Origin: an uncultured Prevotellaceae bacterium
GTDB lineage: Bacteria > Bacteroidota > Bacteroidia > Bacteroidales > Muribaculaceae
Assembly: GCA_900318645.1 (NCBI GenBank)
Contig: ONLH01000002.1
Location: 62,001-126,000, forward strand
Reading direction: 5' to 3'
DNA length: 64,000 nt
A program made the position numbers and the translations under genes. The notes beneath the pieces were generated by a model, which was not told where the DNA came from, made no database searches, and saw only the letters and a list, made by a program, of their open reading frames with translations. Within the stretch, counting starts at the first letter, position 1, and the number at the start of each line of letters is the position of its first letter. Below, piece by piece: positions 8,395-27,043 of this stretch.

Positions 8395-8395
8395 T

Positions 8396-12332: not shown

Positions 12333-12551
12333 TCAGCCCATGAAGTCGAGGATGTCCTGGACGGTCTCAAATTCCTTGAGCTGCTCACCGGTGAGCTTCT
12401 TGTGGCACTCGTCATCCACCATCACGATGAGTGACAGCTTGGACATTGAGTCATATTCCTCGATATCGGCCAGCACCATTTCGGGAGTCAGCGTGTTCTC
12501 GTCAAGTTCCAATACATCTTCAAGGAGATGCAGCTTTTCTTCGTTAGTCAT
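12333..12551 (-). CDS. Acyl carrier protein, module 2
   Basis: A 72-residue acidic carrier protein. The phosphopantetheine site is the Ser of EYDSMSKLSLI, a variant of the DSL motif. The length and helical pattern match free-standing ACPs of secondary pathways, not the very conserved fatty-acid AcpP. Together with the KAS III and SDR genes upstream it forms the second carrier-protein module of the locus. It would hold the acyl chain as a thioester while it is extended and reduced. Its gene is flanked by repeat-rich spacers on both sides, unlike most genes here. No dedicated phosphopantetheinyl transferase is nearby, so a housekeeping enzyme must load it. Confidence 0.85.
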   Translation of the reverse strand: MTNEEKLHLLEDVLELDENTLTPEMVLADIEEYDSMSKLSLIVMVDDECHKKLTGEQLKEFETVQDILDFMG

Positions 12552-12675
12552 AATTGTTGTTATTGATTATAATGTTAATAAAATAATTACTTGTTTATCA
12601 AATCATTGAATAACCTTTTACCTCCAACGGGGCTGTGCCATAATTTATTCGCTGCAATTTGAATCGCGCTTCGCG

Positions 12676-12760
12676 CGAGAAATTAAACAAAAATTTATAT
12701 AAAAATTAAACAAAGCGTATTTTCATTTAAATTTTATTAATAATTTTGTTTAATTTCTCG
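12676..12760. repeat. AT-rich inverted repeat between ACP and KAS III genes
   Basis: Perfect 17-bp arms (12676-12692 and 12744-12760, starting CGAGAAATTAAAC) flank about 50 bases of very AT-rich DNA. GC-rich mini-palindromes abut both ends (GCGCTTCGCGC on the left, CGGCC-GTTA-GGCCG on the right). No open frame is present. The form is that of a miniature inverted-repeat element. Confidence 0.6.
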
Positions 12761-12801
12761 GCCGTTAGGCCGATCAAAAAACAGAGGCGAATGATGACAC
12801 A
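12760..12801. repeat. ~45-bp unit, copy 2 (at the 3' end of the KAS III gene)
   Basis: Second copy of the unit at 12284-12328. It starts GGCCGTTAGGCCGAT, has the same A run and ends AATGATGACACA, seven bases from the KAS III stop codon. It also forms the right edge of the AT-rich inverted repeat. Confidence 0.55.
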
Positions 12802-12807
12802 CCGCCT

Positions 12808-13845
12808 TCACACGAACAATCCGTCGTCAAAGTATTCGTCGGTCTCGATGATGGGCAGCACATCACGGGCATCGATGGTGATATCACCGGCTGCCCATGA
12901 CAGGCCGACGCCGTAACCGCAGATCAGGGCACGGATGCGCTCACTGCTGTCCTTGCCTCCATACTTCTGGACAAAGCACAGGGGGATGGATGCCGCGCTC
13001 GTGTTGGCATAGCGGTCAATCGACACGAGCATCTTGGCCTTATCGAAGTGGGTGCGACGCACGATCTGCTTCATGATCATCATGTTAGCCTGGTGCAGCG
13101 CCATGCAATCAAAGTCGTCGGGCGTCAGGCCCTTGGCAGCCAGCAGCTCGTTGATGAGTGCCGGGGCCTCGTCGATGGCGAAGTTGAACACGGCGATCTC
13201 GTCAAATACGCCCTCGGTGTCGGGACGCTCGGGGTGCTTGCTGTAACCGTACGGGCGCAGGATGGCCTTGTAGCCCGAGCCGTCGGTGCGCGAGGCGATG
13301 GTGATGGGCGATGCGCCATCCTCCTTGACCAGCAGGGTGGCGGCACTGGCGTCGCCGAACAGGTTGCGCGAGTTGTCGCTGCGCACACCCTTGGACGGAG
13401 TGTCACCCGCCAGCAACAGGCCGTAGCGCACGTTGCTCGACTGCATCAGCGACGAGACCACGTTCAGGCCATAGACATAACCCGAGCAGCCCAGGTTGAT
13501 GTCAAATGCCATACAGTCTCGCGGCAGGCCCATCCTGTCCTGCAGCACACACGCCGTTGAGGGCACGCGGTAGTCGGGGTACTGCGTCGCATAGACCAGC
13601 ACACCCACTTCGCTCTTGTCGATGCCCTGGGCATCCAGGATGCGCAGGGCGGCCACTTGGGCGAGGTCGGCAGCCGTCTGGCGCGGGCCGCACTCATAGT
13701 GACCCAGCACACTTGTCGTCCTCACGAACTTATCGAGAACGGCATCGTTCTCGCCGTTCTTGAGTGACTCAATCGAAATCCAGTTGCTCGATACGGCACA
13801 GGCGATACCCCGTATCGCGATGCCATTAAATTCACTCAGTATCAT
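12808..13845 (-). CDS. 3-oxoacyl-ACP synthase III-like enzyme, module 2
   Basis: A 345-residue thiolase-fold enzyme of the FabH type. The full catalytic triad is present: C120 in INLGCSG, H251 in ALHQAN and N281 in YANTS. FabH joins a primer acyl-CoA to malonyl-ACP; relatives in secondary pathways also transfer acyl groups to other acceptors. The C-terminus has an acidic extension (DVLPIIETDEYFDDG) that is also found, in changed form, in the second KAS III of this locus. The gene is GC-rich (39 of 60 bases at 13201-13260), in contrast to the ATP-grasp genes upstream. It most likely makes a short acyl chain for a sugar substituent, which is inference. Confidence 0.85.
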   Translation of the reverse strand: MILSEFNGIAIRGIACAVSSNWISIESLKNGENDAVLDKFVRTTSVLGHYECGPRQTAADLAQVAALRILDAQGIDKSEVGVLVYATQYPDYRVPSTACVLQDRMGLPRDCMAFDINLGCSGYVYGLNVVSSLMQSSNVRYGLLLAGDTPSKGVRSDNSRNLFGDASAATLLVKEDGASPITIASRTDGSGYKAILRPYGYSKHPERPDTEGVFDEIAVFNFAIDEAPALINELLAAKGLTPDDFDCMALHQANMMIMKQIVRRTHFDKAKMLVSIDRYANTSAASIPLCFVQKYGGKDSSERIRALICGYGVGLSWAAGDITIDARDVLPIIETDEYFDDGLFV

Positions 13846-13850
13846 TGGTT

Positions 13851-13945
13851 TCAGTTTTCAGTTGTCAGTTGTCAGTTTTTAGTTTTTAGTTGCCAGTGGA
13901 TTTGAATGCCAATCTTTAAACCCTAAACTCTAAACTCTAAACCTC
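13851..13945. repeat. Short degenerate tandem repeats
   Basis: Two adjacent blocks in the spacer between the KAS III and SDR genes: TCAGTTGTCAGTT-type units (13851-13896) and CTAAACT-type units (13914-13945). The same two words recur in spacers at 44328-44360, 44596-44740, 49981-50215 and 51397-51478. They carry no open frame. Confidence 0.6.
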
Positions 13946-13969
13946 AAGTTTTGAAATCCAAAACTTGAA

Positions 13970-14734
13970 TCAAGTGGACATTTTGCCGCCGTCCACGGTC
14001 AGGCAGGTACCCGTGATCATGCGAGCCTTGTCACTCAGCAAGAACGCGATGGAGTTGGCGATGTCTTCGGGCTCACACACGCCCAAGTATTGACGTATTT
14101 GATTGATCTTGTAGCTGTCAGTATCCTGGGCATAGCTCTCATATTGCTGTCTCATGCTGGTATTGGTAGCGCCAGGGGCGACGGCATTCACGCGCACGCC
14201 TTTTCCACCCAGTTCCACCGCCATGCACTTGACGGCAGCATTCATCGCCGCCTTAGAGGATGTGTAGGCCACCTTCGTCGGAGCGCCATAGAAGGCACCG
14301 ATTGACGACACGCCAACAATGCTCATTCCAGGGTTGAAAGCCTTGCGCTTGGTCAGGCAACGTACAAGCTCGACAAACGAGAAAAAGTTCACGTTCATCA
14401 CACTGACCATATAGGGATACTTCGACATCTTCAAGGGGCGCACCTCGCCAGTACCGGCACAGTGCACAAAACCATCTACCGGGCCATACTGCTTGATGAC
14501 ATCATCAATAACGGGCTCAATACCCTCAATATTGCCGAAGTCACAAACGCGGTAGCCATGTCCCTCGCCAGGCAGTTGCTGGCACAATTCTACCAGCTTT
14601 TCCTCGTTGAGGTCAAGGGCAATGACCTGTGCCCCACCCTGCGCCAGCATGGCCGACACGGCCTTACCCATGCCACCGCAAGCACCTGCAATAACTATTA
14701 TTTTATTTTGAAAATTTAGAAATTCAGCCTCCAT
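13970..14734 (-). CDS. Short-chain dehydrogenase/reductase, module 2
   Basis: A 254-residue classical SDR, starting at the ATG at 14734 (the frame continues to a TTG six... three bases earlier). The cofactor loop reads AGACGGMGKAV, and the acidic residue at the end of strand 2 (LDLNEEK) would favour NADH. The catalytic Ser is in VSSIGAF and the YxxxK motif is YTSSK. Paired with KAS III and ACP it would reduce a 3-oxoacyl-ACP to a 3-hydroxyacyl-ACP, as FabG does. Reduction of a keto sugar is the alternative. It lies eight bases after the first ATP-grasp gene's stop. A homologous SDR closes module 1 at 25665. Confidence 0.85.
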   Translation of the reverse strand: MEAEFLNFQNKIIVIAGACGGMGKAVSAMLAQGGAQVIALDLNEEKLVELCQQLPGEGHGYRVCDFGNIEGIEPVIDDVIKQYGPVDGFVHCAGTGEVRPLKMSKYPYMVSVMNVNFFSFVELVRCLTKRKAFNPGMSIVGVSSIGAFYGAPTKVAYTSSKAAMNAAVKCMAVELGGKGVRVNAVAPGATNTSMRQQYESYAQDTDSYKINQIRQYLGVCEPEDIANSIAFLLSDKARMITGTCLTVDGGKMST

Positions 14735-14742
14735 CAAACTTT

Positions 14743-15786
14743 TCAGTTTTTGCTAATAATATGATCAAACCAGTGATTTTTACCCACCATATCCCACGTT
14801 TGAATTAATTCATATCCAGCTGGGAAATTGATTTCTATGAATTCCACCCTATCGGGCAGAACAGCAAAGTCTAATCCAGCATAAACGATTTTCTTGTTGT
14901 CGCTGATGATTTCCTTAGCCAATGCACAGATTTCTTTAAACCTCGGGATTTCAAAACCAGGCATTATCTTGTTGGTTCCTGGATGAATAACATATTTCTT
15001 TCCCAAGGCATCCACACCGGGATATGAAATAATGCCTGTGTCTATATCAACAGGATAAGCGACACCACCAGCACACCAATTATCAACGACTGCCCCACCT
15101 CGACCACAGCGCAAAAAGGCACACAATATCTGAACCTCATCCTGAGCATTCACAAGAGTAAACAGGCGCAAAGTATTTAAAGATGTTGAATTGATAGCAT
15201 TCAATTCTTCACAATTCACACACTGTTCTTCCAACAAGAAAGCATTCAGCTGCTTTTTCTCCAACAAGTCAGTAACTGCATCGGCATCATTGGCATGAAG
15301 GGCAAAAATGCCATTGCCCTTATCCGATGACACAGGCTTGACAATAACTATCCCATGCTTGTTTACAAAATCACGAATCTGGGCCTCAGGCGTGTCCGCC
15401 TCGACTAACAACCAATCGCGATGAATATAATTGGAATATATCTCATACATGGACGCCTTGTCTATCAAGCTGAAAAAGGTTTCCTTATCAAAATGCTTTA
15501 TCAGATTGAAATATCGACGAAGCGTGAAGAACTTATTCTTTTCTCGACCGTTTTTCCTAAAAAACTCAAATTCCACATAATCCCGGCAATGCATGGCTCC
15601 GTACCTGAGGTTGCTCAACATCATGTCAACCCAGTAGCCCACCCTGCTGCCTCCATATTTAACAGACAATTCCTCTGACGTTTTCCAAGCATATTTTGAA
15701 AAAGTCCTGATCTGCTTAACACTGTACAACTTATAGTCATACAGCATCTGAGCACGTTTTAAGGAATCGCTGCTGATGGTCCGCAT
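14743..15786 (-). CDS. Sugar-transfer-associated ATP-grasp protein (divergent copy)
   Basis: A 347-residue ATP-grasp enzyme. VKPVSSDKGNGIF is the nucleotide-binding loop and EINFPAGYELIQTW near the C-terminus carries the metal-binding acidic and Asn residues. It is related to the three larger neighbours (shared SLNTLRLFT and VDNWCAGGVAYPVD-like segments) but lacks their N-terminal PYPGE region. ATP-grasp ligases join a carboxylate to an amine or thiol through an acyl phosphate. In glycan loci this subfamily probably amidates sugars or attaches amino acids. It is AT-rich and almost abuts its neighbours, so the four genes read as one block. Confidence 0.75.
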   Translation of the reverse strand: MRTISSDSLKRAQMLYDYKLYSVKQIRTFSKYAWKTSEELSVKYGGSRVGYWVDMMLSNLRYGAMHCRDYVEFEFFRKNGREKNKFFTLRRYFNLIKHFDKETFFSLIDKASMYEIYSNYIHRDWLLVEADTPEAQIRDFVNKHGIVIVKPVSSDKGNGIFALHANDADAVTDLLEKKQLNAFLLEEQCVNCEELNAINSTSLNTLRLFTLVNAQDEVQILCAFLRCGRGGAVVDNWCAGGVAYPVDIDTGIISYPGVDALGKKYVIHPGTNKIMPGFEIPRFKEICALAKEIISDNKKIVYAGLDFAVLPDRVEFIEINFPAGYELIQTWDMVGKNHWFDHIISKN

Positions 15787-15787
15787 T

Positions 15788-16939
15788 TTATTGCATCGAT
15801 TTGAGAATGGCGTTTAACGTGTAAGCATTCTTGAATACCTCATCAAGCACTTCACGAGTCATATCCCTGTAAATCGGTCCGTTGCACAGCTGATGAATGT
15901 CCAAGCCACCAGCAAAGTTCATTTCTATGATCAAGGGATGACCACTCTCGTCAATAGCCAAATCCCAAGAAACCAATCTTGACATGATGCTAATACGTTT
16001 AGCAAGGTATTTCACCATCTCGATACACTCATCGAAATTAGGTATCGTCACACTCTCAAATATCGTGCCTGATGGATGCTTGTCATATCTATTGGCCTGA
16101 TAATCATAAGCCTCATTTTTCAGTTGTCCGTTGGGCTTTATGCCGCTCCCGATGCCTCCATTGGTGAAGTTATCGACTTTAGAGCCTGCAATTCCCATTC
16201 TGATACAACTTGACAAGACATGCACCTTGCCATGAAGCATCATTGTCATGATGCGGATGGTATTCAGGCTAGAGGCATTGAGTCGACTCAGTTCGGGATG
16301 CTGCTTCACCACTTCCTGGCACACGACATCCCCACTGCTCTGCAGATAATCCTTGAGTTCTTTCTCGTCATTCCTGCCAGAATCCCAAAACAAGAGACCA
16401 CGGCCACTACGTGTGAATCGAGTAGGTTTAACTATTACCTCGCCCTGTTCTCGAGACATGGCGAGCACATCATCAAGCGTAATCTCATCATATTTCTCAT
16501 CAAGTAACAATCCACTCACTTTCCTGAAAATTGTCCTCGGCCTCTTGATGTCATGATAATACAGGTCATAGAGGTTCTTGTCATCGGTGGGAAAAGAATG
16601 CTGAGGATTGCCGAAATACTCATCAATAAATAGGGCATAGAAATCCTCAGGCATATACTCACAAATCTTCTCCCCAGGACGCAGCACCTTTTTATACACG
16701 TCATAGTACCTGTAGTCAATGAACTTGTCACGCTGCTCGGGCGTGAGATAGGGTGCCCAAAAGGCATCGATTTCCTCACGTTCGCTGGCACTGATGGGTG
16801 TGGAATTCTTTAGTTTGTTGTCCAAGCAATCACGGCCATAAGCCAAGCGAGGAGACAACACCCTGTGATAGTAAGCCTTACGTTTATCATACGAAACACT
16901 ACTCTCACCAGGGAACGGCTTCAATTCAAAATCCTTCAT
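15788..16939 (-). CDS. Sugar-transfer-associated ATP-grasp protein, tandem copy 3
   Basis: A 383-residue member of the sugar-transfer-associated ATP-grasp family. The N-terminal 100 residues (PFPGESSVSYDKRKAYY, then FIDYRYYDVYKKV) are shared with the next two genes upstream. The ATP-grasp core follows: VKPTRFTRSGRGLLF for nucleotide binding, QEVVKQHPELSRLN, then EMNFAGGLDIHQLCNGP at the metal site. It probably forms an amide or ester on a glycan precursor. Only one base separates it from the gene downstream and three from the one upstream. The three copies are clearly paralogous, with conserved blocks throughout, so they came from tandem duplication. Confidence 0.75.
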   Translation of the reverse strand: MKDFELKPFPGESSVSYDKRKAYYHRVLSPRLAYGRDCLDNKLKNSTPISASEREEIDAFWAPYLTPEQRDKFIDYRYYDVYKKVLRPGEKICEYMPEDFYALFIDEYFGNPQHSFPTDDKNLYDLYYHDIKRPRTIFRKVSGLLLDEKYDEITLDDVLAMSREQGEVIVKPTRFTRSGRGLLFWDSGRNDEKELKDYLQSSGDVVCQEVVKQHPELSRLNASSLNTIRIMTMMLHGKVHVLSSCIRMGIAGSKVDNFTNGGIGSGIKPNGQLKNEAYDYQANRYDKHPSGTIFESVTIPNFDECIEMVKYLAKRISIMSRLVSWDLAIDESGHPLIIEMNFAGGLDIHQLCNGPIYRDMTREVLDEVFKNAYTLNAILKSMQ

Positions 16940-16942
16940 GAT

Positions 16943-18094
16943 CTATTGTAATGATTTGATGATGGAATTCAGTGTAAAGCTATTGCTGAAAACATCTTTC
17001 AGTACATCTTTGGTCATACTTCCATAAATAGGGCCATTACACAACTGATGAACATCCATTCCACCTCGGGTCAGATTAAACTCAACAATCAGTGGTTGAC
17101 CACTCTCATCTATCGCGAAGTCCCATGAGATTTGTCTTGAAACCGTTGCAAATCTTCTTGCCAATACTTTTACTGTATCAACGCACTGGCTATAGCTGGG
17201 TATTGTCACACTCTCAAAAGCCGTTCCCAGTGGATGCCGTTCATATTTGTTGGCACACACATCATAAGCGACATTTCTCAACTGGCCATTGGGCTTGATG
17301 CCACTAGCGATGCCACCATTGGTGAAGTTATCCACTCTTGCATCGTTCGAGCCCATTCTCAAGACGCTTGACAACAGATGAGCCTCGTCATTAAATACCA
17401 CTGTCATCATCCTGATCGAGTTGACGCTATTTGGGCTCAACCGATTAAGCTCAGGGTGCTGCTTGATGATTTCCTGACAGATGACAAATCTCGTATTCTG
17501 CAGGTATTCAGCTATTTTGTCCGGGCTATCAGTTTCTGCATTCCAGAACAAGATGCCTCTGCCGCCAGCCGAAAACTTTGCAGGCTTCAAAACCACCTCA
17601 CCACAGTCACGGCACTTGTCAACAACCTGTTTTAAAGTCAGTGCCCCATAATTCGCATCCAGCAATAAACCGTCTATTTTTCTAAAAACAGTTACAGGAC
17701 GCTTGAGATCATGAAAATACATGTCATACATGTTCTTATCATCACATGGAGCAGAGTGCTGCGGATTGGTAAAATACTCATCAACAAATGCTTGATAAAA
17801 ACTATCCGGCAAGTATTGATACAGGGGCTCTCCTTCCCGCCTAACGCTATTATATAAATCATAGTAGCGATAGTCAATCAATTTTGACCGTAACTCAGGG
17901 GATAGGTATTGACTCCAGAACTCATCAAGTTCTTCACGCTCTTGAACAGTAATGGGGACAGCATTATGAAGTTTTCTATCTAAATTCAGAGTGCAAAACT
18001 CAAAACGATTCTTTAAAAGCCTGATATAATAGGCCTTTCGTTTTGCAAAGGATTCTTCACTCTCGCCAGGATACGGTTTAATCAAGTCTTCCAT
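16943..18094 (-). CDS. Sugar-transfer-associated ATP-grasp protein, tandem copy 2
   Basis: A 383-residue paralogue of the flanking genes. The N-terminus reads PYPGESEESFAKRKAYY. The nucleotide loop is LKPAKFSAGGRGILF, the middle block QEIIKQHPELNRLSPN, and the metal site EFNLTRGGMDVHQLCNGP. Small changes near the metal site relative to copies 1 and 3 (an inserted Thr-Arg) may mean a different substrate. The start ATG shares one base with the stop of copy 1, so translation is coupled. ATP-dependent ligation on a sugar or sugar-linked acid is the expected chemistry; no substrate can be named. Confidence 0.75.
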   Translation of the reverse strand: MEDLIKPYPGESEESFAKRKAYYIRLLKNRFEFCTLNLDRKLHNAVPITVQEREELDEFWSQYLSPELRSKLIDYRYYDLYNSVRREGEPLYQYLPDSFYQAFVDEYFTNPQHSAPCDDKNMYDMYFHDLKRPVTVFRKIDGLLLDANYGALTLKQVVDKCRDCGEVVLKPAKFSAGGRGILFWNAETDSPDKIAEYLQNTRFVICQEIIKQHPELNRLSPNSVNSIRMMTVVFNDEAHLLSSVLRMGSNDARVDNFTNGGIASGIKPNGQLRNVAYDVCANKYERHPLGTAFESVTIPSYSQCVDTVKVLARRFATVSRQISWDFAIDESGQPLIVEFNLTRGGMDVHQLCNGPIYGSMTKDVLKDVFSNSFTLNSIIKSLQ

Positions 18095-19248
18095 CAGCTC
18101 TTGAATGATTTTATAATTGAATTTAACGTATAACTCTTACTAAACAACTCTTTTAATACGTCCTCGGTTATATCACCAAAAATCGGACCATTGCATAACT
18201 GATGGAAATTACTGCCACCATTTGAAGGACCGAATTCTATTAATACGGGTTCACCTTTCTCGTCAATCGCAATGTCCCATGCCAATAAACGTGACATTGC
18301 CGCAAGTCTTCTGGTTAAATCTGTTGCCAATTCTACACATCTGTCATAATTTGGCACTTTGATTTGATTCAAGCATTTCCCTTGAGGTCTATAGTCAATT
18401 TTGGTTCCATCGATATCACAAGCCTTATCCCTGAGCCGTCCTTCACCATCTATGCCGCATGCAAATCCTCCACTATGAATATTGTCCAATCGGCTTCCTT
18501 TGGCACCAAAACGAATAAAACTTGACAACATGTAAACCTTATTATCAAAGAAAAAGGTCAACATGCGAATCGTATTGATGCTAGTCGGGTTCAGAATGCT
18601 CAACTCAGGATGCTGCTTGATCACCTCTTGACACACGATATGGTTGGAACCATTCAAGAAATCCACCAGCTTATCTTCTCCATCAACAGAGGGATTCCAG
18701 AACATCACCCCATGACCACCACTAGAAAATCTGGCTATCTTCAAAACAACTTCACCAGCATCTCTTGACCTTTTAATGGCATCTTTCAATGAAATCTCTT
18801 TATAATCATCATCCAAGTACATGCCATATAACTTTCTAAAGACAGTCTTGGGTTGTTTTACACCATGAAAGTATAAATCATAGAGATTCTTGTCATCACT
18901 GGGCCTTGAATGCTGAGGATTAGTGAAGTATTCATCAACAAAAGAATTAAAAAAAGAATCAGGAAGGAAATAAGCAAGTCGCTGATCTTCTCTTTTTACT
19001 TTCTTGAAGACATCATAGAAACGATAATCTATAAACAAATCACGCAAATCTGGCGTCATGTATTGACTCCAAAATTCATCTATCTCCTCTTTTTCCTCAG
19101 GAGTGATGGGTATTCCATTGGGCATATACATCTTAATGAGTTTCTCAGCATATTCTAGGCGGCCTTGCAACTCACGCATAAAATAAACCTTCCTTTTCAA
19201 TGTGGAAAACTCATCCTCACCAGGATAGGGTTTGATAAAATCTATCAT
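18094..19248 (-). CDS. Sugar-transfer-associated ATP-grasp protein, tandem copy 1
   Basis: A 384-residue paralogue, first of the tandem block to be transcribed. It has PYPGEDEFSTLKRKVYF at the N-terminus, LKIARFSSGGHGVMF at the nucleotide loop, QEVIKQHPELSILNPT in the middle, and EFGPSNGGSNFHQLCNGP at the metal site. The usual E-x-N pair reads E-F-G here, followed by Asn two residues on, so catalysis could be altered. Base composition is low in GC (23 of 60 at 18541-18600). It follows the CysE-like gene after 26 bases. Confidence 0.75.
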   Translation of the reverse strand: MIDFIKPYPGEDEFSTLKRKVYFMRELQGRLEYAEKLIKMYMPNGIPITPEEKEEIDEFWSQYMTPDLRDLFIDYRFYDVFKKVKREDQRLAYFLPDSFFNSFVDEYFTNPQHSRPSDDKNLYDLYFHGVKQPKTVFRKLYGMYLDDDYKEISLKDAIKRSRDAGEVVLKIARFSSGGHGVMFWNPSVDGEDKLVDFLNGSNHIVCQEVIKQHPELSILNPTSINTIRMLTFFFDNKVYMLSSFIRFGAKGSRLDNIHSGGFACGIDGEGRLRDKACDIDGTKIDYRPQGKCLNQIKVPNYDRCVELATDLTRRLAAMSRLLAWDIAIDEKGEPVLIEFGPSNGGSNFHQLCNGPIFGDITEDVLKELFSKSYTLNSIIKSFKS

Positions 19249-19274
19249 GACTGTTCTAAATAATTATAACTCCA

Positions 19275-19850
19275 TTATAGTTTCTCTGGAGCTGAAACAA
19301 ACGTATTGTCCAGCACCTCTTCTTTTTGAATGATTTCCAGCCCACGGTTCACACACACGCAATTATCAGGAACATCCTTGGTGACAATGCAATTGGCACC
19401 GATTCGGCAGTTGTTACCTATCTTGCAATTCCCGATAATTTTGGCCCCAGCACCAATATAAACATTGTCACCAATTGTCGGAGAGCCCTGGTTTTTGCTA
19501 CCGACAGTCGTGTTAGAGCCAATAGTCACCTGCTGAAAAATCACAACATTCTTGCCTATATGGGCGTTTGTACTGATGAAAACACCATAGAATGAATGTG
19601 GGAACATTGGAATTTCATCAAATTTTGCACCTAATCCTATATAAGCGCCATATAAGCGCAGGAAAGAAAAATAAAGTAATTTTCTCCTAGGAGTAGGTTT
19701 TCTAATGCAGGACTCCCTAAAATTCCAAAAATTGCGATTATAGAACAATTGCAGGAGAAAAAACGGGTGTTCCCTGATGAAAATATCAATAAACGGAAAA
19801 TGTATAATATTATACAATAATGTTTTTACTCTTGATAAAAAAACGAGCAT
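19275..19850 (-). CDS. CysE-like hexapeptide acetyltransferase
   Basis: A 191-residue left-handed beta-helix acyltransferase of the serine O-acetyltransferase (CysE/WcaF-like) type. Hexapeptide repeats run from about residue 95 to 165 (IGKNVVIFQQVTIGSNT, then IGDNVYIGAGAKIIG and IGNNCRIGANCIV). The N-terminal 75 residues are basic and hydrophobic and replace the helical domain of true CysE. In glycan loci these enzymes O-acetylate a sugar or amino-acid substituent from acetyl-CoA. A housekeeping cysteine role is unlikely given the context between ATP-grasp genes and a CapA-SGNH fusion. The gene is AT-rich like the ATP-grasp block. Confidence 0.8.
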   Translation of the reverse strand: MLVFLSRVKTLLYNIIHFPFIDIFIREHPFFLLQLFYNRNFWNFRESCIRKPTPRRKLLYFSFLRLYGAYIGLGAKFDEIPMFPHSFYGVFISTNAHIGKNVVIFQQVTIGSNTTVGSKNQGSPTIGDNVYIGAGAKIIGNCKIGNNCRIGANCIVTKDVPDNCVCVNRGLEIIQKEEVLDNTFVSAPEKL

Positions 19851-19883
19851 ATCTAATTGGTATAAAGCTCTTAGTTCTACTTT

Positions 19884-21764
19884 TCAATGCATGGAAGCCA
19901 CTACACAGGCCCTGCTGAACAACTGGATACCCTGATCGGCATTGGGATGGATATGGTCTCTGAGGTATTTGGCTCGATACATGTGGTCATCATGTATCGC
20001 CTGATGAATGTAAGGATTGGGATTGATATATAGGTGCTCTCCCTCGATACAATATTGCTCAAGGGTGGCAGCATATTCCTCGTAGAGCCTAAGCTTCTCG
20101 GCCACGGTCGTGTGACAGAAGCGGTCCGGTTCAAAACTGAGCCAAGGGCTAATCATAACGATGCGGATGCCTGGAGTTGCTTGGCGAAGCGCCTGGACGA
20201 GCAGGTCAATGTTGTCAATAAACTGCTTGGCGTCCATAGCACATACCGAACTGTCGCGGTAACGGATGTCATTGCAGCCGATGCCTAGGACATAGAGATC
20301 GGCATTCTCCTGGGCAATCTGCTTGCGGTTCTCGGCCAAATAGGTCGATGTTATGCCGCCCGAGGCCCATCGCGATACGTTCTTCACGCCCAGCATGGCC
20401 ACGAGGGGCTCATACCAGCCATAACCGCGGTTTCTAGTCCCCTCGGTGATAGAGTCGCCCACAAAACAGGTTTTATGTGCAGCCTGCAAGAGTTGCACCA
20501 GCCTGCTATCGGCATACTCTTGCTTCCACGGCATCGCGGGGGCCGGATTCCTCACATAGCCACCATCGGCAAAGGTGAAATAGTGATGCTGTAACTGGTC
20601 TATGGACAAAACTACGCCCAGGGCGGTTTGCGTAATAAGCTTGTGAATGGCACTTATCCGTTTGTAATCGGCAGTACTCAAGCGGCTATAAAGCGAGTCA
20701 TCTTTGATGGCTTTAATCAGGGGCAGCGCCTGGTATCTGCCATATTTTTGCTGGCAATAGGAATAGAGCGGCACGCATGAGGCGGCAAAAGGCTCTCCCG
20801 TGGCGGGATTCAGATAGGCCTCAACAATCATCGAGGCATCTCCGTCATACGAGATGTAGGAATTGACGAAATTACCGGGACAGTGGGCTATCAGCACATT
20901 TTTCCCGCTCTTGTTCTTGCGCCACTCGATGGGCTGCACCGCATGGCAATGGTCCGAGAAAATGATGTCGGCGCCCTGCTCTACAAACAGTTCACACCAG
21001 GCCAGCTGGTCTTCATCGGGAGCATGCATGAACTGCTTTCCCATGTGGGGCAAGACAACGATGATGTCGGGATGCTGCGACTTCAGTCGCTTGAAATCCT
21101 CTTTTACCAGTTCCTGGCAAGCAGTGAAATATTTGCTTTTCTTGGGCACCACGCAACTGGTAATATGCCCGTTCTCCGGCTCGAAGAAGAAATCCTCATT
21201 AATGTAATTGTTTCCATAGGTATAGGTCAGCACACCTATCTTCAGCCCCTTCACTTGCAGTACCTTGGGCTCGTCATGCTCGGCACGATTGCGGTAAGAG
21301 CCAGAGTGATCGAGACCGATAGCGTCCAGCACGTCGAGCGTACGCAAGTAGCCGTCAATGCCCTGGTCGAGCAAGTGGTTGTTGGCCGTCGTCACGAAGT
21401 CGATACCTGCACGCTTGACAGCAGCAGCAAAACTGTCAGGGAAATTAAGGTAAAGCGGGAGGCCATCATCTCCACATGACGTGGTGTAGCCATTGTCGGG
21501 GCCAGCCATCGGCCCCTCAAAAACGCCAATAGACAGATCATCCTCGGCCCAATACTCCTTGACATGCTCAAACATCTCATCAAAGTCATAGGTACCCTCC
21601 TCCAGATTGTAGGCCCGCTCAATCATGTCGCGCAGCAAGATAAGGTCGCCAGTGAAGCTGATTTTGACAGCTCCCTCGACAGCCTTTTGCTGCTCAGCCG
21701 TGATGACGGGGTAGATGGGATCCTGAATGACTGCAGGAGACGATCCGATGACGTCTTTACTCAT
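19884..21764 (-). CDS. CapA-domain / SGNH-hydrolase fusion protein
   Basis: A 626-residue two-domain protein. Residues about 33-345 form a CapA (PGA_cap) domain with the phosphatase-like motifs ISFTGDLILL, GVFEGPMAG and TTANNHLLDQGIDG. Residues 433-626 form an SGNH esterase: VGDSITEG with Ser438, a block-III segment LGIGCND, and DHIHP with Asp603 and His606. CapA is known from poly-gamma-glutamate capsule systems; SGNH enzymes remove or transfer O-acyl groups. The fusion suggests one protein that handles an amide-linked and an ester-linked surface modification. No signal peptide is visible, so it may act in the cytoplasm, unlike membrane-anchored CapA. It follows an ACP gene by nine bases. 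Confidence 0.8.
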   Translation of the reverse strand: MSKDVIGSSPAVIQDPIYPVITAEQQKAVEGAVKISFTGDLILLRDMIERAYNLEEGTYDFDEMFEHVKEYWAEDDLSIGVFEGPMAGPDNGYTTSCGDDGLPLYLNFPDSFAAAVKRAGIDFVTTANNHLLDQGIDGYLRTLDVLDAIGLDHSGSYRNRAEHDEPKVLQVKGLKIGVLTYTYGNNYINEDFFFEPENGHITSCVVPKKSKYFTACQELVKEDFKRLKSQHPDIIVVLPHMGKQFMHAPDEDQLAWCELFVEQGADIIFSDHCHAVQPIEWRKNKSGKNVLIAHCPGNFVNSYISYDGDASMIVEAYLNPATGEPFAASCVPLYSYCQQKYGRYQALPLIKAIKDDSLYSRLSTADYKRISAIHKLITQTALGVVLSIDQLQHHYFTFADGGYVRNPAPAMPWKQEYADSRLVQLLQAAHKTCFVGDSITEGTRNRGYGWYEPLVAMLGVKNVSRWASGGITSTYLAENRKQIAQENADLYVLGIGCNDIRYRDSSVCAMDAKQFIDNIDLLVQALRQATPGIRIVMISPWLSFEPDRFCHTTVAEKLRLYEEYAATLEQYCIEGEHLYINPNPYIHQAIHDDHMYRAKYLRDHIHPNADQGIQLFSRACVVASMH

Positions 21765-21773
21765 AATAGCTGT

Positions 21774-21995
21774 TTATTTCAGTTTCTCGATAAGGGCCCA
21801 GATGGCTTCGGCGGAGTTGAAGTTCTCGGGGTCGAGTTCGTTGATGCGGATCTGTACGCCGAAGGCGTCGTCGATCTCGCTGATGATGGAAACGACGTCA
21901 AAGGAGTCGAGGATGCCGTCGTCAATGAGTTCGGTCTCGTTCTCGAAATCCACGTCCGGTCGGATTCCCTTTAATATTTCTAACAGTTTGTCCAT
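21774..21995 (-). CDS. Acyl/peptidyl carrier protein, module 1
   Basis: A 73-residue acidic carrier protein from the ATG at 21995 (MDKLLEILKG). A longer frame to 22022 adds nine residues that do not fit the first helix. The phosphopantetheine Ser lies in DDGILDSFDVVSII, close to the DltC / peptidyl-carrier form. It sits in one run with an amino-acid-type adenylation enzyme and a GNAT acyltransferase. This resembles a Dlt-like route: the adenylation enzyme loads this carrier and a transferase moves the group onward. The downstream CapA-SGNH gene begins nine bases later. Confidence 0.85.
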   Translation of the reverse strand: MDKLLEILKGIRPDVDFENETELIDDGILDSFDVVSIISEIDDAFGVQIRINELDPENFNSAEAIWALIEKLK

Positions 21996-22080
21996 ATTAT
22001 AAAAAGAAAACAATAAGTGCAATAATTACTATAGCTATCCAACACGAAGCGATTTTAAAGACAACTTAAACAACTTCTTG

Positions 22081-22890
22081 TCAGGGTTGCTTGATGAGGG
22101 AGAGAGTGGACTTGTTGAGGTAGCGGAAGCCTTTCTTCCGGTACATGGCCACGGCAGCGGCATTCTGCTGCTGCACCCAGAGCATGTAGCGGCTCTTGTC
22201 GCTCGTGTGGTTGCGCTCGACAAAGGCGTCCACCAGTGCCTGCCCCACGTGTCTGCCGCGCGCGGCGGGCACCACTGCGACATGGGAAATCCACGCCACG
22301 TTGCGTTCCACCGTCTGGTGCAGCGCCCCTAACGGGTCGCCTGCCCCATCGACAGCCATCAGCACCTGGTTGGCCTGCAACAAGGTCGGCAGCTCGCTCT
22401 CATCGATATAGTCCCCGCTAAAGGGATCAAAGGCGTCGTTGAACATCTTGACAGCCCATGCCACCTCGTCAACGCTGATGGCCGGACGCACCTCGACCTC
22501 GCCATGAGCCGAAGCGGGCGCCAAATCCTGATAGACTGCCGCATACTGGTCGCGCACCAGGTTCTCCTCAAAGCCCATTGCCACCAAATAATCCCGCTCG
22601 GCCTGAGGAAACGGGCCATTGCCGCGATACAGGATCTCGAGCATGATGACCGGGTCGGGGGCAGTGAGGACATCGGGCGACGTGATGTCGTTGAGGTAGT
22701 AGTACATGCGGCAACAGTTGGCCTTGCGCTCCAGCAGATAGGCATTGCTGTAGTGGCAGTCGGCATAGAGCAGGCCGCGAGCGATGAGGTCACCGACACG
22801 CGTCTGCAAGTAATCATTGCTGCGGCAGCCCTCGCGGCGATAGCGCTCCACGATGCCGTTATACTGCTGGATGTCGGTCAACTGTTCCAT
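22081..22890 (-). CDS. GNAT-family acyltransferase
   Basis: A 269-residue protein with a C-terminal GNAT domain (about residues 130-265). Its acyl-CoA loop reads VAVVPAARGRHVGQAL, followed by the helix that ends the fold and the YRKKGF strand seen in many N-acetyltransferases. The N-terminal 125 residues are less typical and may be a second, degenerate GNAT fold or a partner-binding region. Lying between an adenylation enzyme and its carrier protein, it could transfer the carrier-bound group, or acetyl-CoA, to an amine. GNAT enzymes that accept ACP thioesters are known. The gene is GC-rich like its module partners. Confidence 0.75.
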   Translation of the reverse strand: MEQLTDIQQYNGIVERYRREGCRSNDYLQTRVGDLIARGLLYADCHYSNAYLLERKANCCRMYYYLNDITSPDVLTAPDPVIMLEILYRGNGPFPQAERDYLVAMGFEENLVRDQYAAVYQDLAPASAHGEVEVRPAISVDEVAWAVKMFNDAFDPFSGDYIDESELPTLLQANQVLMAVDGAGDPLGALHQTVERNVAWISHVAVVPAARGRHVGQALVDAFVERNHTSDKSRYMLWVQQQNAAAVAMYRKKGFRYLNKSTLSLIKQP

Positions 22891-22926
22891 CTTCTACTCC
22901 CCGAAAAGAAATCGTATTCTTTGTAT

Positions 22927-24459
22927 TTATTGTTGTTTTAACTGTTGATATCGTTGTTTGAGGGCGATACGGTCAATCTTGCCGTTCATGTTGTGCGGCA
23001 TCTGGTCAAGGTGCAGCGACACATTGGGGAACATATACTTGGGCAGACGGTCCTTCACCAGGTTGATGATGTCCAGCTCGTTGCCGCTGGCAGTGGTGTA
23101 ATAGAGGACAATCTTGTCCTGCTCGCTGTCAAAGATGCAGGCAGCGCCCGTCACGTCCTCGAGGGCATTGACGGCCACCTCGATCTCGCCCAACTCAATG
23201 CGGTTGCCGTTGTGCTTGATCTGGAAGTCCTTGCGGGAGACGAACTCCAGTTCGCCCCGGCTGTTATACTTGACAATGTCGCCCGTGCGGTAGATCTTGT
23301 CGTCGTAGAGGTCGTGCAGCGGATTTTGCACAAAGGCCTCGCGGGTCTTCTCCTTGTTATTGTAGTAGCCCAGGGCAACGCCCGTGCCGCGCACGCACAA
23401 CTCGCCCGGCTCATCCACGCCCACCAGCTTGTCCTCGTCGTTAAAGACAAGCACCTGCATGTTCTCGCAGGGTTGGCCGATAGGGATATACTCATCGTCG
23501 GCAAAGTCGCGGTCCACGACATAATAGGTGCAATCGACGGTAATCTCGGTGGGGCCGTACAGGTTGATGAACTGTGTCGAGGGCAACTTGTCACGCCACA
23601 CATTCAACTGCTTGGCAGGCATCGCCTCGCCAGCAAAGAAGACGCGCCTGAGCCCACTGGGCACATTGTCGTCAAGAATGTGGCTGTTGCCCACCAGCAC
23701 GATGGCCGATGTCGCCCACAGGATGGTGGTGATGCCACGCTCGTTGAGCAACTGGATGAGCAGTTTGGGGAACGTGAAGTATTTCTTGCCGATGACGTGG
23801 AGTGTGGCACCCGTCTTCAGGCAGATGTAGATGTCCTTGACCGAGCCGTCGAAGTAGAACGGCGTCTGATTGCCCAGCGCGTCGGTATCGTCAAAGCCGA
23901 AGCGGCCCACAAGCCATTCGGCCAGGTCTATCACGCCACGATGGCTGACGACAACCCCCTTGGGAACGCCCGTCGAGCCGCTGGTGAAGATGGCATAGAG
24001 CGGGTCGGTATCAATGATCCGCGAACGAATGCCGTCAAGCAACGCCTGGTCGCTCTCGTGAGCAACAGCTTCCTGATAATCAATCACTGCGCCGCCAAAG
24101 CCGATGGTCTGCAGCGCCTGGGCATCGCGTGCCGTCACTGTGATGGCGGCAATGGGGTTGAGCACTTCGGCAATGAGGCGGATGCGGGCCTCGGGCATCT
24201 TGTTATCGATGGGCACATAGAAGTTGCCGCTCTCGACCACGCCCATAAAGCCGACCAGACACTCTATCTTGCGGTCCACAAACACCAGCACGGGCCGCCG
24301 CATAGCACCCGAGGTGAGACGTGCAATGAGGGTGCCTATGCCCTGCGCCATCGATTGCCACTGGGCAAAGGTAACAGCACTCTTGTCATCGGCCAGCGCC
24401 ACCTTGTCAGGGAATCGGCGTGCAGAATCGTCAAGATAGGAAAGAACGTTGTAAATCAC
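22927..24459 (-). CDS. Stand-alone amino-acid adenylation enzyme (DltA/NRPS A-domain type)
   Basis: A 510-residue member of the adenylate-forming superfamily with a GTG start. Core motifs are in order: A3 IFTSGSTGVPKG (157-168), A5 NLYGPTEIT (299-307), A7 YRTGD (390-394) and A10 NGKIDR with the catalytic Lys494. Motif A4 reads FYFDGS. Its Asp204 matches the residue that binds the alpha-amino group in amino-acid-activating domains, so an amino acid is a more likely substrate than a fatty acid. It should form an aminoacyl-AMP and load the carrier protein encoded two genes downstream. DltB and DltD partners are absent, which argues against teichoic-acid-like D-alanylation. Confidence 0.85.
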   Translation of the reverse strand: MIYNVLSYLDDSARRFPDKVALADDKSAVTFAQWQSMAQGIGTLIARLTSGAMRRPVLVFVDRKIECLVGFMGVVESGNFYVPIDNKMPEARIRLIAEVLNPIAAITVTARDAQALQTIGFGGAVIDYQEAVAHESDQALLDGIRSRIIDTDPLYAIFTSGSTGVPKGVVVSHRGVIDLAEWLVGRFGFDDTDALGNQTPFYFDGSVKDIYICLKTGATLHVIGKKYFTFPKLLIQLLNERGITTILWATSAIVLVGNSHILDDNVPSGLRRVFFAGEAMPAKQLNVWRDKLPSTQFINLYGPTEITVDCTYYVVDRDFADDEYIPIGQPCENMQVLVFNDEDKLVGVDEPGELCVRGTGVALGYYNNKEKTREAFVQNPLHDLYDDKIYRTGDIVKYNSRGELEFVSRKDFQIKHNGNRIELGEIEVAVNALEDVTGAACIFDSEQDKIVLYYTTASGNELDIINLVKDRLPKYMFPNVSLHLDQMPHNMNGKIDRIALKQRYQQLKQQ

Positions 24460-24538
24460 TATTGTATTGGCACTAGGCCTTAAGTGTCAGATCTTTAATT
24501 AAAACGCCAAGTTCTGAAATTCACTGAACTTGAATATC

Positions 24539-25651
24539 TCACTTTTTCTCGTAGAGTTGGTTGGGATAGGTGATCAGGCCCTCGGTAAAGATCTCGTCAT
24601 CCTCCATGATGGGCAGGATGTCGGCCGTGTTGATTTCAAACGAGGTCGCACCCAACGAGATGCCGATGCCGAAGCCGCACGCCATCACCTTAATGACCTT
24701 GTCCTCGGCATTGCTGCCATAGACGTCGCACAGCGACACGATAGCCGATGCGCCCGACGTGTTGCCGTAGCGGTCGAGCGTAATGGGCATCTTGTCAAAA
24801 GGAATTTTGGCCTTTTTGGCGATTTGCTTCAGGATATACAGATTCGCCTGATGGAAGGCATAACAGTCGTAGTCCTGGGGGACCGTGCCTGTCTTCGCCC
24901 AGAAATCCTTGACGAGGCGAGGCACGTCAAAGATGGTGAACGTGAATACCGAGGTGCCCTGGATAAACGAGTTCATCAACGAACGCTCATTGCCATCGGC
25001 ACACATCTGGGGCTCCTCGCTGGCATGCAGGTTGCGGTAACCGCCACCAGGAATGATCATGTACTTGAAGCCCGTACCATCACTGCGGATGAGCGCCTTG
25101 ACTTGGTCAGCAGGGTCATCGGTCTTCTCCAACAGCATCACCGCACCAGCCTCGCCGAAGAGCATGGCCGAACTGCGGTCATTGCCGTTCACCGACTTGC
25201 CCGCCGTGTCGCCCACGAACAGCAAGCCATACTTCATGTCACTGGTATTGAGGATGGACGCCATCGTCTGCATGCCCACGACCAACGACGAGCAGCCCAA
25301 GCTGATGTCATAGCAGACAGCCTCCTCGGGGATGCCCAAGCGGTACTGAAGGACAAACGCCGTCGAGGGCCGACGATAATCGGGGCTGTGAGAGGAAAAG
25401 ATCAATACGCCGATTTCCTCAGGCTTGATGCCCTTGTGGGCCAGCAGTTCCTTAGCGGCACGATAGCCCAAGTCTGAACACGTCTGATGCTCTTGAGTGC
25501 GACGTGAAGCCCTCACTCCCGTCATCGCCATGAACTTGTCCACCTCTTCGTCACCGAAGACCGGTTTGTAGGACTCGGATTTCACCTCATTGCGAGGCAC
25601 AGCGCAGGCCACACCTGCCACCTTGATATTTTTATACTCAAAAAATGCCAT
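24539..25651 (-). CDS. 3-oxoacyl-ACP synthase III-like enzyme, module 1
   Basis: A 370-residue FabH-type enzyme with the triad C120 (ISLGCSS), H267 (AFHQAN) and N297 (YGNTS). It is homologous to the KAS III at 12808 and shares its acidic C-terminal tail (DILPIMEDDEIFTEG), here 15 residues longer. It would extend or transfer a carrier-bound acyl group. Two complete KAS III copies within 13 kb of one glycan locus are unusual and suggest two different products or two rounds of extension. It lies 13 bases after the SDR gene and 79 bases before the adenylation gene. Confidence 0.85.
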   Translation of the reverse strand: MAFFEYKNIKVAGVACAVPRNEVKSESYKPVFGDEEVDKFMAMTGVRASRRTQEHQTCSDLGYRAAKELLAHKGIKPEEIGVLIFSSHSPDYRRPSTAFVLQYRLGIPEEAVCYDISLGCSSLVVGMQTMASILNTSDMKYGLLFVGDTAGKSVNGNDRSSAMLFGEAGAVMLLEKTDDPADQVKALIRSDGTGFKYMIIPGGGYRNLHASEEPQMCADGNERSLMNSFIQGTSVFTFTIFDVPRLVKDFWAKTGTVPQDYDCYAFHQANLYILKQIAKKAKIPFDKMPITLDRYGNTSGASAIVSLCDVYGSNAEDKVIKVMACGFGIGISLGATSFEINTADILPIMEDDEIFTEGLITYPNQLYEKK

Positions 25652-25664
25652 TTCTTAGCAAAAC

Positions 25665-26411
25665 TTATAACGTGTATCCTCCATCGATGACCAACGAGTG
25701 CCCAGTCACCCATGAGGAAGCATTCGACAACAGGTAGATGATGCCGTTGGCAACATCCTCGGGCTCGCCATATCTTTTCAACGGATACTTCTGCATATCA
25801 GCCTGATGCTGTTCCTCACTGACTGCACCGCCCTTAATCAGTTTAGTATTCACCATTCCCGGGCAAACGCTGTTGACGCGGATTTTTTTAGGAGCCAATT
25901 CCAGTGCACAGAAGCGCATGGCAGAGTTCAGTGCAGCCTTGGAAGCACCATAGATGCTGTTACCGATGGTAATGGAATCCACACCACCGATCGAAGAGAC
26001 AAATACAACCGATGCGCCATTAGCCAGTTTCTTCTTTTTCAACAGCTGACGCAACAACTCGACCGGAGCAAAATAATTGATCTCAAAAATCGGGTTCTGC
26101 TTCTTGCGGTCGGCCATCTTAAACGGAACGACAGTTCCCTGGCCAGCACACAAGACGACGCCGTCAACCACGGGCAACTGTTCAAGAAGGCCTTGGAGCT
26201 GCTCCTCTTGCGTCAAGTCGGCGATGACGGCCTGATGACCTTCGCCCTCCAGTTCGCTGAACACTTCATCAAGACGCGTCTGGTCACGACCGGTAATAAT
26301 GACATTCGCCCCCATCTGGGAACATTCGATAGCCGTTGTGCGACCGATTCCCGACGACGCTCCAGTCACGAGGACTGTCCGCCCCTCCAGCGAAAAAGGA
26401 TTAACAAGCAT
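25665..26411 (-). CDS. Short-chain dehydrogenase/reductase, module 1
   Basis: A 248-residue classical SDR close to FabG in length and plan. The cofactor loop is TGASSGIG, strand 2 ends ITGRDQTR (an Arg that favours NADPH), and the catalytic residues lie in VSSIGG and YGASK. With the neighbouring KAS III and carrier protein it would reduce a 3-oxo to a 3-hydroxy acyl thioester. Conversion of a keto sugar is the other option. Its start is two bases from the stop of the NeuD-like gene, so it belongs to the same operon. Homology to the module 2 SDR supports duplication of a whole SDR-KAS III-ACP unit. Confidence 0.85.
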   Translation of the reverse strand: MLVNPFSLEGRTVLVTGASSGIGRTTAIECSQMGANVIITGRDQTRLDEVFSELEGEGHQAVIADLTQEEQLQGLLEQLPVVDGVVLCAGQGTVVPFKMADRKKQNPIFEINYFAPVELLRQLLKKKKLANGASVVFVSSIGGVDSITIGNSIYGASKAALNSAMRFCALELAPKKIRVNSVCPGMVNTKLIKGGAVSEEQHQADMQKYPLKRYGEPEDVANGIIYLLSNASSWVTGHSLVIDGGYTL

Positions 26412-26413
26412 TA

Positions 26414-27043
26414 TTACAGGTCAAATCTTTTAGCCGGGTTACCAAAAACCTTGATGCCAGGCTTAACATTATTAAAAACGATACTACCGGCACAAATGTA
26501 GGCATCGTCGCCAATCTTACGCTTGTTCAAAATCACAGCATGGCTACCGACAAAGACTCTCTTTCCCAAATGAGCATTAGTGATGTTAGCATAACCCGTA
26601 ACAGTGGAGTAATCACCAATGACTGCATCTTCTCCTACCATTGAACCAGCCAAATGCACGAAATCACCAAGTACAGTACACGTTCCTATCGATGAACGTC
26701 CAGCGATAACACAGCCTTCGCCGATTTCCACATTCTCACTGATCAAAGCGTAGGGATGAATCAAGGTCTCAAATACTGCGCCCTTAGGTTTGAGGACATT
26801 TGCCACTTTCTCCTTGCCGGCTGGTGAAGAGATCCCCATCACAAAAACTTCGTTTTCAGATGGTTGCCAATCCACAATCGTACCGATGATACTATGGCTG
26901 CATTTGATTCCGTCCAAGGTATCGGGAATGTCACTTAGAAAACCCTTGATATTCCATCTGGGTTCAATACTATTTAATGTCTTTGCCAAAGTTAAGGCTT
27001 CACGACCGAAACCTCCTGCTCCTACGATAATCAAATCTTTCAT
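26414..27043 (-). CDS. NeuD/PglD-family sugar O- or N-acyltransferase
   Basis: A 209-residue two-part enzyme. Residues 1-85 form a Rossmann-like sugar-nucleotide-binding part starting IVGAGGFGREA. Residues 95-205 form a left-handed beta-helix (GEGCVIAGRSSIG, then GSHAVILNKRKIGDDAY), ending in the family's GNPAKR. PglD-type enzymes N-acylate a 4-amino sugar made by a DegT aminotransferase. Both are present here, with two aminotransferase-fold genes upstream, which makes a 4-acylamido sugar plausible. The acyl donor may be acetyl-CoA or a product of the carrier-protein modules. The start overlaps the previous gene by four bases. Confidence 0.85.
   Translation of the reverse strand: MKDLIIVGAGGFGREALTLAKTLNSIEPRWNIKGFLSDIPDTLDGIKCSHSIIGTIVDWQPSENEVFVMGISSPAGKEKVANVLKPKGAVFETLIHPYALISENVEIGEGCVIAGRSSIGTCTVLGDFVHLAGSMVGEDAVIGDYSTVTGYANITNAHLGKRVFVGSHAVILNKRKIGDDAYICAGSIVFNNVKPGIKVFGNPAKRFDL

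Follow-up and report, generated by a model that had tools for sequence, protein, structure and literature searches.

Why should a surface-glycan locus of an uncultured Prevotellaceae bacterium carry an amino-acid adenylation enzyme beside two sets of genes of the kind that extend acyl chains on carrier proteins? The question was addressed in a stretch of 64,000 nt (GenBank GCA_900318645.1, contig ONLH01000002.1, positions 62,001-126,000), called the window below and used for all coordinates of its genes, from a genome that is 91% complete. The genes concerned encode a stand-alone amino-acid adenylation enzyme (A), two β-ketoacyl-acyl carrier protein synthases III (KAS III; KAS1 and KAS2), two short-chain dehydrogenases/reductases (SDR1 and SDR2), two acyl carrier proteins (ACP1 and ACP2) and a GNAT N-acyltransferase. 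Our preferred reading, a tentative one, is that they form a small assembly line of separate enzymes which may build a single side chain, N-linked to an amino sugar in the surface glycan.

Every gene family listed in an earlier sequence-only reading was confirmed by Pfam at its place, and A, both KAS III, both SDRs and the two carriers each show their key active-site residues. One half of the set comprises SDR1 (25665..26411, ketoreductase-type), KAS1 (24539..25651), A (22927..24459, Pfam and NCBIfam), GNAT (22081..22890) and ACP1 (21774..22022, PF00550, 73 residues from its ATG). The other comprises SDR2 (13970..14737, ATG at 14734, ketoreductase-type), KAS2 (12808..13845) and ACP2 (12333..12551, PF00550, 72 residues); all are on the reverse strand. 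The halves had been described as two separate modules. In G180, from the same genus, they stand in a single contiguous run, DegT-GT61-ATP-grasp-27040 homologue-PglD-SDR1-KAS1-A-GNAT-ACP1-SDRa-SDR2-KAS2-ACP2 (27040 being a window protein described below), which rules out two independent modules; judged by this gene order, the two are one cassette. The sister species RUG11775 (L133) keeps both halves, split by an ATP-grasp array: PglD-SDR1-KAS1-A-GNAT-ACP1-eight ATP-grasp genes-SDR2-KAS2-ACP2-Wzx. The window follows the same plan, but with four ATP-grasp genes, a hexapeptide transferase and a PGA_cap-GDSL protein between the halves.

Conservation of the gene set was assessed by scanning a genome collection with three A domains, which gave 366 relatives; neighbourhoods were counted for the best 80, sorted by the titles of their records into 29 Bacteroidota loci and 51 others, mainly Bacillota. 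A KAS III was present anywhere in the locus in 29/29 Bacteroidota versus 2/51 others (L081 and L088), and directly upstream of A (within 2 kb) in 27/29 versus 0/51. The co-location of KAS III with A is not chance (Fisher p = 9e-20, a value that overstates independence, as the loci are related). Within 3.5 kb upstream, PglD turned up in 22/29 versus 0/51; an SDR is present in all 26 Bacteroidota loci reaching more than 219 bp past A. The acyltransferase MBOAT showed the reverse distribution, with 1/29 versus 46/51, and two of the five contigs without it end less than 200 bp from A. DegT was present in 17/29 and a PglC-like transferase in 16/29 Bacteroidota stretches. The usual Bacteroidota plan is PglD-KAS1-A-GNAT or formyltransferase-ACP1-(SDRa-SDRb or ATP-grasp-SDR)-ACP2, seen with variations in Odoribacter laneus, Butyricimonas, Chitinophaga, Paludibacter, Saprospiraceae and Bacteroides stercorirosoris, the last with no PglD directly upstream. 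Odoribacter laneus YIT 12061 and Bacteroides stercorirosoris DSM 26884 each have the order KAS1-A-GNAT-ACP1-SDR-SDR-ACP2. Taking the starts of the longest open reading frames, the gap between KAS1 and A is at most 15 bp in 24/27 and that between A and the GNAT or formyltransferase gene at most 18 bp in 25/27, many pairs overlapping. The sequence-only reading was to be refuted if the set were not conserved together in relatives; the set is kept together across Bacteroidota, so this part of the test does not refute it. Surveys from the KAS1 side gave three further genomes, of which 3/3 have A, GNAT, two ACPs and at least two SDRs beside KAS1; two had already been covered as L040 and L050, and only one is new. 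The cassette is rare and patchily distributed: KAS1-type matches (E <1e-100) occurred in 2/247 family, 2/393 order and 2/395 phylum genomes, with the window's own genome counted each time.

Both window KAS III enzymes keep the Cys-His-Asn triad and share the tail D-(I/V)-L-P-I-x-E-x-D-E, so that the triad and common acidic C-terminus pointed out earlier are both borne out. They scored under the FabH cut-off (TIGR00747; 155.0 and 138.1 versus 292.1 bits), with the positions of FabH Trp32 and Arg36 changed in both. The genome holds seven KAS III matches: the two described here, one typical FabH and, in a stretch of ~15 kb on another contig, four more. As to an exclusive role in general fatty-acid synthesis, an objection raised in advance by the sequence-only reading, the window enzymes are unlike the housekeeping enzyme, and the genome has a separate FabH. 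In the tree, the KAS1 rows (n=29, the window and 28 of the 29 Bacteroidota loci, L056 carrying another type) form one A-linked clade with support of 100/99. The KAS2 rows (n=4) form a separate clade (100/100), sister to KAS1 at 98/94. All 29 KAS1 rows keep Cys-His-Asn; in each, Lys replaces FabH Trp32 and Met replaces Arg36. The place of FabH Phe87 is occupied by Arg in 28 and by Lys in one. Among 26 related KAS III from a family survey, that place is held by Ile (14), Met (4), Leu (4), Thr (3) or Ser (1), and by a basic residue in none. The genomes of these 26 gave no match to this A at E 1e-80; a weak A-like match (36-58 bits) was seen for three of the KAS III, and 21 lie no more than 1.5 kb from a glycan-type neighbour. 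Another, divergent lineage that combines A, ACP, KAS III and GNAT was observed in L088 (Lachnospiraceae) and L038 (G060), whose KAS rows join at 100/100 in the tree.

A scored above the NCBIfam amino-acid adenylation cut-off (TIGR01733; 344.3 versus 317.4 bits) and under the DltA equivalog cut-off (293.1 versus 559.85 bits). Its Asp204 sits at the place of GrsA 235, according to a site map placed by motif; both results uphold the earlier assignment to an amino-acid-type A domain. The best NCBIfam model for ACP1 is DltC (41.9 versus a cut-off of 68 bits). Its motif is LDSFDVV, and LDS(F/M)D recurs in 23/26 of the first carriers listed (ACP1 place); ACP2 has EYDSM, and DSM(A/S/T/G)KL recurs in 20/24 of the second carriers listed (ACP2 place). 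The Dlt D-alanylation system likewise combines a stand-alone A domain with a small carrier, and the relatives of the cassette A outside Bacteroidota sit in operons with MBOAT. In the window, by contrast, no MBOAT was matched by a hidden Markov model (HMM) built from four relatives, nor was one present among the genes scanned with Pfam, which cover 1-44270.

The gene right after A encodes a GNAT in 23/29 Bacteroidota loci and a formyltransferase in 4/29 (L047 and L061 by Pfam match, L070 and L072 by HMM only), never both; the two remaining loci stop no more than 116 bp past A. Acetyl and formyl transfer thus look, from gene content, like alternatives at one step, and this interchangeability suggests that the group naturally acylated is the amine on the loaded amino acid. 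Outside Bacteroidota the same position is taken by a GNAT in 17/51 loci and by a formyltransferase in another 3/51; these 20 all have a carrier and MBOAT, and none has a KAS directly upstream of A (L081 has a FabH-like KAS ~7 kb off); the A-(GNAT or formyltransferase)-ACP unit there also points to an aminoacyl-ACP as the N-acylated substrate. Most likely, then, the GNAT of the cassette N-acylates the amino acid loaded on ACP1. Its Arg211 is invariant in 37 sequences and lies in what is presumably the CoA loop; a search of solved structures with the GNAT gave no match. The earlier proposal that the locus makes custom acyl or aminoacyl groups stands as regards carrier chemistry; the likely role given here to the GNAT is a correction to it, made because a formyltransferase can replace that enzyme. 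The idea that the GNAT adds the KAS product is weakened by the same swap. L059, L065, L086, L089 and other non-Bacteroidota loci were seen to be Dlt-like A-GNAT (or formyltransferase)-ACP-MBOAT operons, often with an SGNH-like protein, apparently for transfer of N-acylated aminoacyl groups to the envelope.

KAS2-type genes occur in five loci (the window, L040/G180, L041/L133, L047 and L050/G988); when the genomes of 22 loci were searched for KAS2, only those of L041 and L047 had one. An SDR1-type reductase accompanies KAS2 in 5/5 loci, which fits a second round of condensation and reduction. Of 16 loci with SDRa, eight (the Bacteroidales ones) have an SDRa without the catalytic Tyr and the other eight keep this residue; the glycine motif of SDRa is missing in several further loci. 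In the window, the glycine motif and the catalytic Tyr are both present in SDR1 and SDR2, the latter with Tyr-Lys. Counted by intact motifs, the core consists of one condensing enzyme and at least one reductase, and the extended form of two of each.

From these families we infer the substrates, the order of the steps and the final transfer as follows. A would adenylate an amino acid and load it onto ACP1, the predicted aminoacyl carrier, where the GNAT would N-acylate it, probably with acetyl, or with formyl where the formyltransferase stands in. KAS1 would condense the N-acyl-aminoacyl group with malonyl-ACP2 (ACP2 being the predicted carrier of malonyl and product), an SDR would reduce the ketone, and KAS2 with the other SDR would repeat the cycle. 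The resulting 4-acylamino-3-hydroxy or 6-acylamino-3,5-dihydroxy acyl group would go to a 4-amino sugar made by DegT (29214..30329, reverse strand, PF01041; top NCBIfam models DesI, then PseC, both under cut-off), most simply through the PglD/VioB-like hexapeptide N-acyltransferase (26414..27043, reverse strand, PF17836), and the sugar would enter the pathway of Wzx (10546..11979, reverse strand, PF13440) and the glycosyltransferases. Wzx, glycosyltransferases, PglD and DegT, all recognised by Pfam, mark the surroundings as a surface-glycan locus, in keeping with the earlier suggestion that the carrier chemistry serves a surface glycan. Elsewhere in the genome, a 671-aa frame matches PF02719 (PglF-type) and PF01648 (phosphopantetheinyl transferase) is matched twice, so that the general functions needed appear to exist. 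A bolder version is conceivable but more doubtful: a free-standing hybrid peptide-polyketide line of single-function proteins in which an aminoacyl group, N-formylated or N-acetylated, passes from a DltC-like carrier to a KAS III and, by one or two extensions, becomes a statine-like chain decorating a surface sugar, with an interchangeable ATP-grasp array of variable length adding further amino acids.

Several observations weigh against the proposed assembly line. The closest solved relative of the window PglD is VioB (7txp), and the window protein has Glu where VioB has an aligned His, which we take to be catalytic. Among PglD rows above 90 bits and of normal length, His is kept in VioB and 14/19 cassette rows, and Gln takes its place in L040, L041, L047 and L057. 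(Four of the five PglDs with Glu or Gln stand in KAS2-bearing loci.) PglD is absent within 3.5 kb upstream in 7/29 Bacteroidota loci, six of which have ~10 kb of upstream sequence (L043, L048, L049, L051, L052 and L055); some PglD-less loci have a PglD match further off. Because the window PglD is without the expected His and six loci are without PglD, transfer is the weakest step of the pathway; either this His is dispensable for it, perhaps, or a different enzyme may be responsible. We know of no KAS III that uses a discrete N-acyl-aminoacyl carrier as primer. Trp32 and Arg36 are also lost in all 26 survey KAS III, so that the loss gives no specific support, and these CoA-binding residues were dropped as proof of a carrier-bound primer, their loss being general to related KAS III. 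Naming the amino acid from the A pocket (DGKLFALVDK) was likewise abandoned, as Lys239 is common to most Dlt-like relatives. Finally, the support draws on the best 80 of 366 A relatives, the A of L056 is accompanied only by a KAS of non-KAS1 type and a weak GNAT match, and G060, which is divergent, carries comparable genes but no Arg87.

The same genes could act in parallel, KAS, SDR and ACP2 making a 3-hydroxyacyl group which the GNAT joins to the amino acid on ACP1, before the N-(3-hydroxyacyl)-aminoacyl group passes to the sugar. This is unlikely, given that KAS, SDR and ACP2 stay in the 4 Bacteroidota loci where the formyltransferase replaces the GNAT, which would leave the KAS product without an amine acceptor, that the GNAT keeps Arg211 at the presumed CoA loop, and that a GNAT occurs in the 17 non-Bacteroidota loci without a KAS directly upstream of A. 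It does have precedents: N-[(R)-3-hydroxybutyryl]-L-alanyl is known on 4-amino-4,6-dideoxyglucose (PMC3210612), and in the viosamine island a KAS III, a reductase and an ACP were assigned to the 3-hydroxybutyryl group (PMC3927599). We also doubt that A, GNAT and ACP1 make an N-acyl-aminoacyl group, and KAS, SDR and ACP2 a polyketide-type one, as separate products placed on two different amines or hydroxyls. The two carriers do have distinct motifs, and the window encodes both a membrane acyltransferase (PF01757) and a further hexapeptide transferase, but a KAS of the KAS1 clade adjoins A in 27/29 loci, its signature is found in 0/26 survey KAS III, and core cassettes such as L042 show a single PglD.

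If the KAS III enzymes were non-condensing acyltransferases, as those of CerJ type presumably are, and moved the aminoacyl group to the sugar, they would fill the room left at the transfer step by the doubtful PglD active site and the PglD-less loci. We regard this as improbable, since the condensation triad is intact in 29/29 KAS1 rows and the 26 Bacteroidota loci that extend more than 219 bp beyond A all have an SDR. It is very improbable that the locus carries out ordinary aminoacylation of the Dlt kind, or that general fatty-acid genes came to lie in it by chance: A and ACP1 do resemble DltA and DltC, but the DltA cut-off was not reached, no MBOAT was found in the window, FabH is a separate housekeeping gene and KAS accompanies A in 29/29 Bacteroidota loci, counts that already contradict it.

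For the proposed assembly line, partial parallels exist. The Campylobacter jejuni flagellar locus Cj1303-Cj1308 has FabH2, two ACPs and an amino-acid-activating enzyme. In Flavobacterium psychrophilum, also a member of Bacteroidota, wfpC-wfpG of the O-antigen locus are predicted to make the 3,5-dihydroxyhexanoyl group on Qui2NAc4N, the side chain itself being known by nuclear magnetic resonance (PMC6519341). Like the cassette, this set has two KAS, an ACP, a 3-ketoacyl-ACP reductase and a PglD homologue; unlike it, no adenylation enzyme, second carrier or N-acyltransferase is named in the part available, and the chain is without an amino acid. The Pseudomonas syringae viosamine island encodes VioA, VioB, VioS (KAS III), VioR (reductase) and an ACP for N-(3-hydroxybutyryl)-viosamine, and deletion of vioR led to loss of the modified viosamine (PMC3927599). 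It shares with the cassette an aminotransferase, a hexapeptide-type acyltransferase, KAS III, reductase and ACP for a 4-N-acyl amino sugar and differs, as far as that source is available, in having one KAS, no A domain named and a 3-hydroxybutyryl product. Measured against these two sets, the window holds KAS III, reductase, ACP and DegT in a glycan locus, and a VioB/PglD family member with Glu for the presumed catalytic His. O-antigen amides of amino sugars with N-acetylglycyl, N-acetyl-L-alanyl and N-(3-hydroxybutyryl)-L-alanyl (PMC3210612) resemble the proposed product in that N-acyl-aminoacyl groups on amino sugars exist; in the part available they show no C2 extension of the amino acid and no genes are given. 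Aeromonas flagellar islands with an ACP, a reductase and an AMP-dependent synthetase are a looser parallel (PMC7874193). No description of a glycan pathway with A, GNAT, KAS III and two ACPs was found in the literature searched, most subscription journals lying outside the search. As KAS/SDR/ACP/PglD sets are already described for 3-hydroxybutyryl and predicted for 3,5-dihydroxyhexanoyl groups, only the aminoacyl front end, A, GNAT and ACP1 joined to a KAS/SDR/ACP2 chain builder, looks new.

Between the halves of the cassette, on the same strand, lie four sugar-transfer-associated ATP-grasp genes (14743-15786, 15788-16939, 16943-18094 and 18094-19248; PF14397), the hexapeptide-repeat transferase (19275..19850, PF00132) and a 626-aa fusion of PGA_cap (CapA-like) and GDSL/SGNH domains (19884..21764, Pfam), for which no match was found in the stretches L036 (G180) and L133 (RUG11775). 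Three of the ATP-grasp proteins share 48-56% identity among themselves; the fourth shares 23-26% with them. The corresponding array in RUG11775 spans L133 6281-15422, G180 has none at this place, and at least one gene of the array type occurs in 8/29 Bacteroidota loci; such a tandem array of variable number could serve to attach several amino acids or to diversify an epitope. Upstream of PglD, also on the reverse strand, are the 27040 protein (27040..27993), without a Pfam match and perhaps a distant DegT-like pyridoxal phosphate protein (a weak likeness, by eye in a forced pairwise alignment), and an ATP-grasp carboxylate-amine ligase-like protein (27990..29207, PF13535). An HMGL-like aldolase with a weak DmpG-type domain match (6404-7417) adjoins a pyruvyl transferase (7414-8433) in the glycan locus. 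A metallo-beta-lactamase-fold hydrolase, possibly an editing thioesterase, is present in 18/29 Bacteroidota loci versus 0/51 others, usually after ACP2 (L040 15576-16163, L042 14304-14903, L061 14390-15007 and others); the window gave no match to it. A second glycan locus of the same genome (L034, contig C35:90001-110000) has four KAS III, several ACPs, a metallo-beta-lactamase-fold protein, DegT, ATP-grasp, a double PglD-hexapeptide protein and an A-like acyl-adenylate enzyme without the amino-acid Asp, and G180 has a similar locus (L039).

If the proposed assembly line is correct, Bacteroidota would vary their coat sugars by the peptide-polyketide logic of antibiotics, cut down to separate small enzymes, and a small aminoacyl-primed KAS III would be available for testing. 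The N-acyl groups of glycans would become predictable from gene content, and unusual side chains would be expected in commensals (Odoribacter, Butyricimonas and Bacteroides), where they could matter for recognition by phages and the immune system.

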